Part shown: piece by piece, positions 6,145 through 9,503 of the stretch
Layout: each line of letters starts with the position of its first letter
Position numbering within the stretch: position 1 is the stretch's first letter
DNA from: Streptomyces sp. NBC_00440
GTDB lineage: Bacteria; Actinomycetota; Actinomycetes; Streptomycetales; Streptomycetaceae
DNA: 64,000 bases
Direction of reading: 5' to 3'
NCBI RefSeq assembly: GCF_036014215.1
Contig: NZ_CP107921.1
Coordinates: forward strand, 1,349,501 to 1,413,500
The notes under the pieces: generated by a model
The model's database searches: none
Told to the model about the DNA's origin: nothing
The model's input: only the letters and a program-made list of their open reading frames with translations
Made by a program: the position numbers and the translations under genes

Positions 6145-6774
6145 TCAGCCGTCCTGTGCCAGCCACTCCGGCAGGCCGGGGGCCTCGGCGCCGATCGTGG
6201 TGGAGTCGCCGTGGCCGGTTCGGACCAGGGTCTCCGGGGCCAGTGTCAGCAGCCGGTCCCGGATGGACGCGACGATCGTCGGGTGGTCCGAGAAGGACCG
6301 GCCGGTCGCACCGGGGCCGCCCTGGAACAGCGTGTCGCCGGTGAACACCGTGGCCAGGTCCGGCGCGTACAGGCAGACCGCACCCGGCGCATGGCCCGGT
6401 GTGTGCAGCACCGTCAGCGCGGTCCCCGCCACCGTCAGGGTCTGCCCGTCCTTGAGTTCGCCGTCCGGGAGGCGGCCGGGGTGGGTCATCCGCCAGAGCG
6501 GCAGATCGTCCGGGTGCAGCAGGATGGGCGCCCCGGTCGCCGCGGCCAGTGCGGGCGCCGCGCCGATGTGGTCGTTGTGCGCGTGCGTGCAGACGATGGC
6601 GCGCAGCGTACGGCCACCGAGGGCGGCCTCGATCGCGGTGGCGTCATGGGCGGCGTCGATGACGATCGCCTCACTGTCGTCGCCGACGATCCAGACGTTG
6701 TTGTCGACGTCCCAGCTGCCGCCGTCGAGCGAGAACGTGCCGGAGGTGACGAGATGGTCGATACGGGCCGCCAT
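6145..6774 (-). CDS. MBL-fold metallo-hydrolase paired with mscR
   Basis: A 209-residue metallo-beta-lactamase-fold enzyme. The metal-binding motif is THAHNDHIG (HxHxDH), followed by the HTPGHAPGAVCLY histidine, FTGDTLFQGG aspartate and a C-terminal RTGHGDSTT histidine, as in glyoxalase II-type thioesterases. Its start overlaps the stop of the mycothiol dehydrogenase gene by one base (TGATG), which implies a joint role. The likely job is hydrolysis of the S-formylmycothiol made by MscR, or another mycothiol thioester; the substrate is inferred from context only. Confidence 0.85.
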   Translation of the reverse strand: MAARIDHLVTSGTFSLDGGSWDVDNNVWIVGDDSEAIVIDAAHDATAIEAALGGRTLRAIVCTHAHNDHIGAAPALAAATGAPILLHPDDLPLWRMTHPGRLPDGELKDGQTLTVAGTALTVLHTPGHAPGAVCLYAPDLATVFTGDTLFQGGPGATGRSFSDHPTIVASIRDRLLTLAPETLVRTGHGDSTTIGAEAPGLPEWLAQDG

Positions 6775-7859
6775 CAGAACTCCACCACCGAGCGCAGCAC
6801 ATCGCCGTCGGCCATCCGCTCGAAGGCCTTCTCGACCTCGTCGACCCTGATCGTCTCGGTGACGAACGCGCCGAGGTCGATCCGGCCCTGCTGGTGCAGA
6901 TCGACGAGCATCGGGAAGTCGCGGGAGGGCAGACAGTCCCCGTACCAGGAGGACTTGAGCGCCCCGCCGCGGCCGAAGACGTCCAGGAGCGGGAGTTCCA
7001 GCTGCATCTCCGGCGTGGGGACGCCCACCAGGACGACCGTGCCCGCCAGGTCGCGGGCGTAGAAGGCCTGTTTGTACGTCTCGGGGCGGCCGACCGCCTC
7101 GATCACCACATCGGCGCCGAAGCCGCCGGTGAGCTCCCGAATCGCCTCTACCGGGTCCGATGTACGCGAGTTGACGGTGTGGGTGGCGCCCATCCGCTGT
7201 GCGGTGGCGAGCTTCTTGTCGTCGATGTCGACGGCGATGATCTTCGCGGCCCCGGCGAGCCGGGCCCCGACGACCGCGGCGTCACCGACACCGCCGCAGC
7301 CGATGACCGCGACCGAGTCGCCGCGGCCGACCTGTCCGGTGTTGATGGCCGCGCCGATCCCCGCCATCACTCCGCAGCCGAGCAGACCGGCGACGGCCGG
7401 GGAGACGGCCGGGTCGACCTTGGTGCACTGGCCGGAGGCGACCAGGGTCTTCTCGGCGAAGGCGCCGATGCCGAGCGCCGGGGAGAGCCCCGTACCGTCG
7501 CTCAATGTCATCTTCTGCTTCGCGTTGTGCGTGTCGAAGCAGTACTGCGGCCTGCCACGCAGACAGGCCCGGCACTGCCCGCACACGGCACGCCAGTTGA
7601 GGATCACGAAGTCGCCGGGGGCGACGTCGGTGACGCCGTCGCCGACCGACTCCACGATGCCCGCGGCCTCATGGCCGAGCAGGAACGGGAAGTCGTCGTT
7701 GATCCCGCCCTGCTTGTAGTGGAGGTCCGTGTGGCAGACCCCGCAGGCCTGGATCTTCACCACAGCCTCGCCCGGCCCCGGGTCCGGGACCAGGATCGTC
7801 TCCACGCGTAGGGGTTGGTTCTTGCCGGGGGCCACGACCCCTTGGACCTGCTGCGTCAT
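6774..7859 (-). CDS. mscR: S-(hydroxymethyl)mycothiol dehydrogenase
   Basis: A 361-residue zinc-dependent medium-chain dehydrogenase. Catalytic zinc ligands appear in [10 protein letters not shown] and [12 protein letters not shown]; the structural zinc lobe is [15 protein letters not shown]. The NAD site is [20 protein letters not shown], and VDIDDKK supplies the acidic residue that favours NAD. The overall sequence agrees with MscR/AdhE2, which oxidises the adduct of formaldehyde and mycothiol and also reduces S-nitrosomycothiol. AGGAAGG precedes the ATG. Translationally coupled to the downstream MBL hydrolase. The 162-bp palindromic element lies 57 bases upstream. Confidence 0.93.
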
Positions 7860-7915
7860 GCCGTCAACAGCCTTCCTGTAACCGAGCGGTACGTGGGCTC
7901 AGTCTTCCAGGCCCC

Positions 7916-8077
7916 AGGACCTTTCGGTCGGGACAGGCCGGACCAGGGAGCGGGGTCTGGTGCGTGCATCTGCAAGGCGGAGGATTGAATCATGGCGGAG
8001 CCATGGTGATTGACGACAACGCCGCAGATGTGCGTGCCAGACCCCGCGAGCCCGGCCCGTCCCGACCGAAAGGTCCT
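7916..8077. repeat. 162-bp nested palindromic element (MITE-like or long RNA hairpin)
   Basis: The outer 19 bases (7916-7934 and 8059-8077) are perfect inverted repeats, AGGACCTTTCGGTCGGGAC. The symmetry continues imperfectly inward to 7973 and 8024, with GCGGGGTCTGG and CATCTGC matching their partners, giving arms of about 58 and 54 bases. The 50-base centre holds a second hairpin, CATGGC-GGA-GCCATG (7991-8005). The right end includes two bases of the permease stop codon. It lies between two genes read in the same direction. It could end permease transcription, but it is far longer than an ordinary terminator. No transposase is present and no clear target duplication was found. Confidence 0.75.
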
Positions 8078-9503
8078 AGCGCTCGGCGGCGATGGACGCG
8101 ACGCGGCCGCGCACCACGAACCAGCCGCCGACGAGTGCGGCGGCGATCAGCGGCAGGCACTCCACGGTGGTACGGCCCACTCCCCCGCCCCACCACATCA
8201 GGAACGCGACGGAGACCAGGAAGCAGAGGGTGACGATCTGGGTGTACGGCGCCCACGGCAGCCGGTAGGAGGGGCGGGTGACCCGGCCCTCCGTCGACCG
8301 CCGCCAGAAGAGCAGCGAGCAGAGCATGACCATGCCCCAGGTGCCGAGGATGCCGATGGAGGCGAAGTTGAGGACGATCTCGAAGGCCTTGCCCGGGACC
8401 AGGTAGTTGAGCACGACGCCCAGCACCCCGAAGGCCGCGGTGAGCAGGATGCCGCCGTAGGGCACCTGGCCCTTGTTCATCCGGCCGGTGAAGCGCGGGG
8501 CGGACCCGGCGAGCGCCATCGAGCGCAGGATGCGGCCGGTGGAGTACAGGCCGGAGTTGAGGCTGGAGAGCGCGGCGGTCAGGACGACCAGGTTCATCAC
8601 GCCGGCGGCGCCCGGGACACCGATCTTCGAGAGCACCGTGACGAAGGGGCTCTCGCCGTCGGAGTACGCGGTGTACGGGAGGAGCAGCGCGAGCAGCACC
8701 ACGGAGCCGACGTAGAAGATGCCGACCCGCCACATGATCGAGTTGATCGCCTTGGGGATGATCTTCCCGGGGTTCTTGGTCTCGCCGGCCGCGACACCGC
8801 ACAGCTCGACGGAGGCGTACGCGAAGACGACGCCCTGGATGACCAGCAGCATGGGCATCACGCCCTTGGGGAAGAAGCCCCCGTTGGCGCTGATGGTGCT
8901 GATCCCGGGGGTGTGCCCGGCGACCGAGTGCTGGGTGACCACCAGATAGATGCCGATGCACATGAAGGCCACCAGTGCGGTGACCTTGATGATCGAGAAC
9001 CAGAACTCGGTCTCGCCGAAGTACTTCACCGAGATCAGGTTGGCGGCCAGGACGACGGCCAGGGCGACGAGCGCGCAGACCCACTGCGGGACCGAGCTGA
9101 ACATCGACCAGAAGTGGGCGTAGGTGGCGGCGGCCGTGATGTCGGCGACGGCCGTGGTCGACCAGTTGAGGAAGTACAGCCAGCCCGCCGTGTAGGCGCC
9201 CTTCTCGCCCATGAACTCACGGGCGTAGCTGACGAAGGCGCCGGACGAGGGGCGGTAGAGGACGAGTTCGCCCAGGGCCCGTACGACGAAGAAGGCGAAG
9301 GCTCCGCAGACGGCGTAGGCGATGGCGAGTGAGGGGCCCGCACCTGCCATCCGGCCGCCGGCGCCGAGGAAGAGGCCGGTACCGATGGCCCCGCCGATGG
9401 CGATCATGTTGATGTGGCGGGACTTCAGGTCTTTGCTGTAGCCCTCGTCACCAGCATCGACGTGCGGTGTCGGTTCTGCCGCAGTGAGGGTGCGGTTGCT
9501 CAT
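8076..9503 (-). CDS. Amino-acid permease (APC family, AnsP/GabP-like)
   Basis: A 475-residue membrane protein with about twelve hydrophobic segments. It opens with the APC signature KDLKSRHINMIAIGGAIGTG, followed by GLFLGAGGRMAGAGPS, and carries the conserved ELCGVAAGETKNPGK loop and ALSSLNSGLYSTGRILRSMA. These are features of the amino acid transporter (AAT) subgroup that includes L-asparagine, aromatic and GABA permeases; proton symport of an amino acid across the cell membrane is expected. The exact substrate cannot be read. It is apparently monocistronic and its stop codon touches the palindromic element. Confidence 0.88.
   Translation of the reverse strand: MSNRTLTAAEPTPHVDAGDEGYSKDLKSRHINMIAIGGAIGTGLFLGAGGRMAGAGPSLAIAYAVCGAFAFFVVRALGELVLYRPSSGAFVSYAREFMGEKGAYTAGWLYFLNWSTTAVADITAAATYAHFWSMFSSVPQWVCALVALAVVLAANLISVKYFGETEFWFSIIKVTALVAFMCIGIYLVVTQHSVAGHTPGISTISANGGFFPKGVMPMLLVIQGVVFAYASVELCGVAAGETKNPGKIIPKAINSIMWRVGIFYVGSVVLLALLLPYTAYSDGESPFVTVLSKIGVPGAAGVMNLVVLTAALSSLNSGLYSTGRILRSMALAGSAPRFTGRMNKGQVPYGGILLTAAFGVLGVVLNYLVPGKAFEIVLNFASIGILGTWGMVMLCSLLFWRRSTEGRVTRPSYRLPWAPYTQIVTLCFLVSVAFLMWWGGGVGRTTVECLPLIAAALVGGWFVVRGRVASIAAER

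Follow-up and report, generated by a model that had tools for sequence, protein, structure and literature searches.

A dispersed palindromic element of Streptomyces with IS5-like ends, a strand-specific folded core and an orientation bias relative to the replication fork

The window analyzed here, a 64,000-nucleotide stretch of the genome of Streptomyces sp. NBC_00440, contains a 160-bp palindromic element at positions 7917–8076. Its top (+) strand is the one that reads CAAGGCGGAGGA...CGACAACGC. The element is intergenic, lies between two genes encoded on the minus strand and holds no transposase gene. On one side is a gene for S-(hydroxymethyl)mycothiol dehydrogenase (6774–7859, minus strand; TIGR03451, 3e-206) whose start is 57 bp from the element. 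On the other is an amino acid permease gene (8076–9503, minus strand; best model L-asparagine permease, below the cut-off) with its TAG stop codon inside the target CTAG. A further ORF beside the dehydrogenase gene (6145–6774) gave a weak match to GloB hydrolase (88 bits, cut-off 201), and its product is perhaps a partner in formaldehyde removal.

A previous sequence-only reading described a gene-less 162-bp palindrome at 7916–8077, upstream of mscR, whose right end supplied two bases of the permease stop codon. The palindrome, its lack of genes and its place upstream of the dehydrogenase gene all hold. Its limits need correction: the element proper spans 7917–8076 and is flanked by CA (7915–7916) and TA (8077–8078). 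We read these as the two copies of a 2-bp target duplication with one base changed, the left CA presumably being derived from TA and the right TA lying inside CTAG. The right end does fall in the stop codon (8076–8078, read on the minus strand), but two bases of that codon come from the TA and just one from the element. The perfect 19-bp inverted repeat that had been noted (7916–7934/8059–8077) is present, as are longer imperfect arms (31 nt that are 90% complementary, 24 nt that are 83% complementary) and a central CATGGC-GGA-GCCATG hairpin at 7991–8005.

Within the corrected limits, the left terminal inverted repeat, GGACCTTTCGGTCGGGAC, occupies 7917–7934 (plus strand) and the right one 8059–8076 (minus strand). 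Between them, all on the plus strand, lie a left inner arm (7950–7973) that covaries and has top-strand G.T pairs, a conserved AA bulge (7974–7975; fixed by the search pattern, and also found in copies outside it), and the 5′ side of three tandem G.A mismatches (7980–7988, with the mismatches at 7980–7981, 7983–7984 and 7987–7988). These are followed by a covarying apical stem (7989–8007) with a GGA loop (7997–7999), the 3′ side of the mismatches together with a CAA bulge (8008–8019, bulge at 8017–8019) and the right inner arm (8024–8047). Pairing of the mismatches was assigned by eye on the fold. A covariance model, R1, built from 22 same-genus cores, matches 7949–8047 on the plus strand. As had been predicted, the RNA, if transcribed, would form a very stable rod: its minimum free energy is −120.1 kcal/mol, far below a shuffle mean of −65 (sd 4.19, n = 200; z −13.15). 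A scan of 7860–8120 turned up neither terminator-like nor promoter-like sites. A mir-1397 match in the window scored 25.3 bits against a threshold of 70 and was taken as chance.

Our results show that the element is an insertion at this locus and that it belongs to a dispersed family. In one relative (G023) the joined flanks, without the element, align with those of the window's copy over 400 of 400 bases, ungapped and at 95%, and the site reads CTGG; therefore, the element inserted in the window's lineage. Streptomyces sp. NBC_01306 (L002) carries it at the same place. At least 17 core-bearing copies are present in the window's own genome, where BLASTN with the element returned 20 matches: the element itself, counted on each strand, one full copy (86%), copies that have the core but different arms, and fragments of the ends. 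Copies sit at unrelated loci with different flanks. A core pattern, CAAGGCGNNGGA followed after 14–44 bases by CGACAACGC, which fixes part of the core, gave nine matches in this genome and none in a reversed control; together with the shuffle z-score, this rules out a chance palindrome. An origin in phages was rejected, since the phage collection gave no match.

The same pattern was present in 58 of 121 Streptomyces genomes including the window's own (control: one match each in five genomes), the genus name resting on named records that carry the element (L001, L002 and plasmids). Two of these genomes, G073 and G035, have likely coding chance matches, and R1 gave no match at their loci (L035, L045). 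A draw of 296 genomes from 114 genera across the class gave matches in 56 genomes and 19 genera (control: one match each in two genomes). The genera of G166 (locus L061, no R1 match) and G182 (by eye) look like chance, as may that of G354, and about 17 genera remain. In the phylum draw five of 246 genomes matched, four of them inside the class; of the 225 genomes from elsewhere in the phylum, one (G637) matched, and this is by eye a coding chance match. Relatives of the element also occur on 30 Streptomyces plasmid records. One genome, G057, has 57 core matches, and 35 of the 49 copies read are identical to the consensus (32 in the fork-consistent orientation, three in the minority one); these copies represent a recent burst. 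A second small hairpin of the TGGGGG...CCCCC...GGGGGAG type is nested in some copies, in an arm (L031, L043, L148, L150, L177, L197) or at the apex (L006, L013), and looks like a second mobile palindrome. A literature search for the repeat found no description of it among the matches listed.

The sequence-only reading had offered a MITE-like dispersed family or a conserved RNA, to be recognized by copies with the same ends at unrelated loci and by covariation in the arms. Such copies were found by BLASTN in the own genome and in the genus and class draws, covariation was found as well (see below), and a single copy at an orthologous locus with no covariation is excluded. Both proposals are supported, by double-stranded terminal repeats on the outside and by a strand-specific fold, of RNA or single-stranded DNA, on the inside.

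The ends are mostly of the form TA|GG...CC|TA, and the sites are CTAG or similar. Of 34 distinct end types, 14 are flanked by TA at both ends and the other 20 at one end, the end finder having demanded at least one TA. Duplication of a TA target is the rule in the IS5-family group, and the end types agree with it, with CA/TA at the window's copy. The terminal 20 bp of the 34 types gave 624 Watson-Crick pairs, 15 G.T, 16 A.C and 25 other combinations. Judged from their sequence, the outer arms look like IS5-family terminal repeats, and some IS5-type insertion sequences (DUF4096) of the same genomes have the same style of ends and the same kind of site. A further insertion sequence, on plasmid NZ_CP130719.1 (L155), has DUF4096 (9e-29) and DDE_Tnp_1 (2e-22) pieces in two separate reading frames, with TA on both sides; its left end is identical to the subfamily b end over 17 of 17 bases and its right end has two mismatches. 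This sharing of ends is seen for subfamily b only, on a plasmid of another strain, and the window's element belongs to another subfamily; of six plasmid regions examined with matching ends, one holds an insertion sequence. In the window's genome, an exact 14-base pattern for two end types, which diverged ends would escape, detected no insertion sequence with such ends: there were 20 exact end matches and no inward pairs of insertion sequence size, and the seven solo ends that were read are stubs, truncated or single ends. Likewise, G057 has no pair of that size with the same 12-base end among 100 of 108 ends listed. In one region of the window's genome (L107 509–3157, about C1:7072500–7075200), an IS5-type insertion sequence lies head to tail with a second inverted-repeat pair of insertion sequence size. 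A palindrome copy (L011) is about 0.5 kb away, and the region may be a hot spot for insertion.

Palindromes with the same ends and no core occur as well (L166 2001–2061, L162 2001–2046, L151 from about 2501, L020 from about 1501), and L166 is by eye L167 without its core, with the junction at a CGCCCG repeat. In G057 and G089, 58 elements were examined, and 40 gene ends fall at their boundaries. The CTAG targets there are at TAG stop codons, and insertion thereby keeps the stop codon.

The inner part of the element behaves differently from its ends. In the 24 pairs of the inner arm, 28 dereplicated copies passing a neutral filter gave 481 Watson-Crick pairs, 112 G.T, 11 A.C and 68 others. A second neutral filter with 30 representatives gave G.T:A.C of 118:12, and the seven of the 28 copies that come from other genera gave 24 G.T and four A.C. 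Six distinct copies outside the search pattern gave 21:0 (five duplicates and the disrupted copy L006, with two G.T and four A.C, were left out); thus, the pattern is not the source of the excess. In double-stranded DNA, a G.T read on one strand is an A.C read on the other, so the two should be equally frequent, and at the ends they are. The G.T excess inside therefore indicates that it is the folded top strand on which selection acts; a mutational strand bias of a general kind would be expected at the ends as well.

Covariation points the same way. When the 22 same-genus cores were aligned, 90.7% of cells were paired, compared with 76.7% in shuffled alignments, and both sides had changed in 117 cells compared with 36. 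None of 500 shuffles reached any of five measures, and structures slid along the alignment were 26–48% paired. Wobble columns are conserved, with U.G in 19 and G.U in 17 of the 22 cores. Among 33 distinct 50-nt cores, GA stands at bases 8–9 in all 33 and at bases 40–41 in 31, positions that are free in the pattern; read from the bottom strand, the mismatches would be T.C. The CAA-proximal G.A has become Watson-Crick (CC with GG) in most copies of subfamily b, and both bulges are kept (by eye). R1 found 19 of 20 other-genera loci at E < 1e-6, all 20 having been chosen with the pattern and the miss being L061. It also found copies outside the exact patterns (L008–L014, L153, L167, L169 and L170 below 1e-8; L006 at 2e-5), and it gave no match to the stubs or to the L155 insertion sequence. 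Folding with RNA parameters favored the top over the other strand in each of three cases (−65.5/−49.9, −74.6/−43.7 and −75.1/−46.1 kcal/mol); DNA parameters gave weaker folds (top-strand z −6.95, −2.94 and −0.65, the L173 and L077 stretches being unevenly cut). By comparison of copies, one strand of the inner ~99 nt is shown to be kept as a fold, either as RNA or as single-stranded DNA. The element has a covarying structured module in common with Rfam families, but none of them matched it at the gathering score in the 10 loci examined. At one locus of another genus (L064, 302–371, minus strand), a cobalamin riboswitch match was barely above its gathering score.

Our studies have also shown that the copies are oriented relative to the replication fork. 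With dnaA taken as the origin, the core strand lies on the leading-strand template in 123 of 154 copies (p 4e-14; copies shared by descent are not independent). Nineteen same-genus chromosomes account for 82 of 105 copies in this majority orientation (own genome, 7 of 9) and G057 for 41 of 49. In G057, copies to the left of dnaA are 26 plus and 2 minus and those to the right 6 plus and 15 minus (p 3e-6). Counted per genome without G057, 17 genomes are above half, one is equal and one below (p 1e-4); in the window's genome, inclusion of the BLAST copies gives 15 of 17. Control matches to the IS5-type transposase (DUF4096, PF13340) in G000, G057 and G089 were evenly split at 25 of 50; of 54 PF13340 matches, two on G000 C2, another on G057 C2 and an overlapping one in G089 were left out.

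Gene orientation is no explanation for the fork bias. With contexts taken from a simple codon-position gene caller, the majority:minority ratios for 58 copies in G057 and G089 were 21:6 between convergent genes, 13:2 in tandem leading, 8:3 in tandem lagging and 5:0 in divergent contexts. The genomes for the orientation counts were drawn from 40, picked by contiguity or copy number, that were queried for dnaA. The pool consists of 20 genus genomes (the 19 and G057) with a long dnaA contig and dnaA at ~0.40–0.52 of its length, several lengths being rounded genome sizes. Outside the pool are four other-genera genomes shown apart, G012, and G118, which has a single copy and dnaA where its contig starts; 14 fragmented genomes were left out, including G382 C1 (3/5) and G347 C15 (0/2), both counted by hand. 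For G057, 49 of the 57 copies were read, leaving out two left-arm and six other matches. The bias is absent in genus g37 (5/13 in three genomes), G101 (3/8) and G049 (3/6) and weak in G069 (6/10). A genome of another family, G242, shows 8/9 if the terminus is assumed to be opposite dnaA, and G012, with an off-centre dnaA, shows 8/17 by hand if linear.

Based upon these observations, we propose, with a probability of about 0.7, that the element is a MITE moved by IS5-family transposases acting on double-stranded terminal repeats, and that its inner ~99 nt form a module that folds on one strand. The MITE with IS5-type ends and a strand-specific folded module is the best-supported part. An IS5-type transposase would act on the double-stranded terminal repeats and move the element into CTAG-like sites, where TA would be duplicated, often at TAG stop codons. 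The inner module would be a separate entity, a covarying rod with tandem G.A mismatches and AA and CAA bulges, kept as a one-strand fold. As a structured RNA or a single-stranded DNA hairpin, it may help the element to spread. The folding strand would be exposed differently on the two template strands, which could give rise to the fork bias, with the element inserting, or surviving, mainly with this strand on the leading-strand template.

MITEs are common, and it might be supposed that this one is wholly passive, with the core kept by common descent and its symmetry by hairpin-templated correction. The ends do behave as double-stranded repeats, and core-less stubs with the same ends occur. Nevertheless, G.T is in roughly tenfold excess over A.C inside and not at the ends, wobble columns are conserved in the core, and the same core is found with different arms in other families; templated correction, moreover, should erase G.T and A.C alike. 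We consider a passive core unlikely. It is highly improbable that the palindrome is just an unusual terminator or an mRNA 3′-end stabilizer of the flanking genes. The gene ends at element boundaries speak for such a role, but the element was inserted at an empty site, its stem-loop has no T run, its orientation is independent of the flanking genes, and the CTAG target accounts for the stop codon. The missing T-tract site and the empty site in the relative rule out a terminator; such an origin is largely refuted, and a secondary effect on flanking mRNA is possible.

The orientation bias could also reflect survivorship, which is compatible with our proposal of a transposase-moved MITE with a folded module. 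The lagging-strand template is the one on which hairpins form more easily, and a strong hairpin there would lead to loss of the copy. The folding strand is the one with the stabler hairpin and lies mostly on the leading-strand template, and all four core-less stubs seen in G057 are in the minority orientation. These are just four stubs of two deletion types, however, among 100 of 108 ends listed, and three share one deletion and maybe one lineage; the stub in the window's genome (L020) is in the majority orientation by eye. Recent, identical copies predominate, no clear difference in age separates the two orientations, and the share of consensus-identical copies (3 of 8 in the minority, 32 of 41 in the majority orientation) is, if anything, the opposite of what rapid loss would leave. 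In a variant of the idea, precise loss may leave no stub. We judge survivorship to be a possible cause of the bias, at somewhat below even odds.

Among known systems, the element resembles IS5-family MITEs (DUF4096/DDE_Tnp_1) in being short (under ~300 bp), gene-less and mostly intergenic, with inverted-repeat ends, TA in CTAG-like sites, bursts, and a subfamily b end shared with an insertion sequence. It differs from them in its orientation relative to the fork and in a strand-specific folded core common to subfamilies with unrelated ends. Integron attC sites are imperfect palindromes in which one strand folds with extrahelical bases, features that the element shares; unlike them, it is a dispersed transposon with a target duplication and no cassette array. 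A folded single strand and replication-linked orientation are also known from REP/RAYT systems. One published source (PMC5371812) describes several bacterial transposons that follow the replication fork via the beta clamp or single-stranded DNA, and IS200/IS605 elements, whose folded single strand moves with an orientation that follows replication. The likeness lies in one folding strand and an orientation that tracks replication. In contrast to IS200/IS605, the element has both long double-stranded repeats and a target duplication, where neither would be expected, and its folding strand is mostly on the leading-strand template.

MITEs are usually viewed as passive leftovers with ends and little else. 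Here, the inner module is kept across actinomycete families while the ends vary by subfamily, which suggests that the module does something. With ends and a target that are almost symmetric, the orientation bias can be read cleanly: its cause must sense either the asymmetric core or slight differences from one arm to the other. We put forward, as a rather doubtful extension, that this family of gene-less transposons has, throughout the class, a conserved nucleic-acid device of its own: a strand-specific fold, in RNA or single-stranded DNA, which links the insertion of an otherwise nearly symmetric element by a DDE transposase to fork direction. The element family would account for many unannotated palindromes at gene ends of actinomycete genomes.
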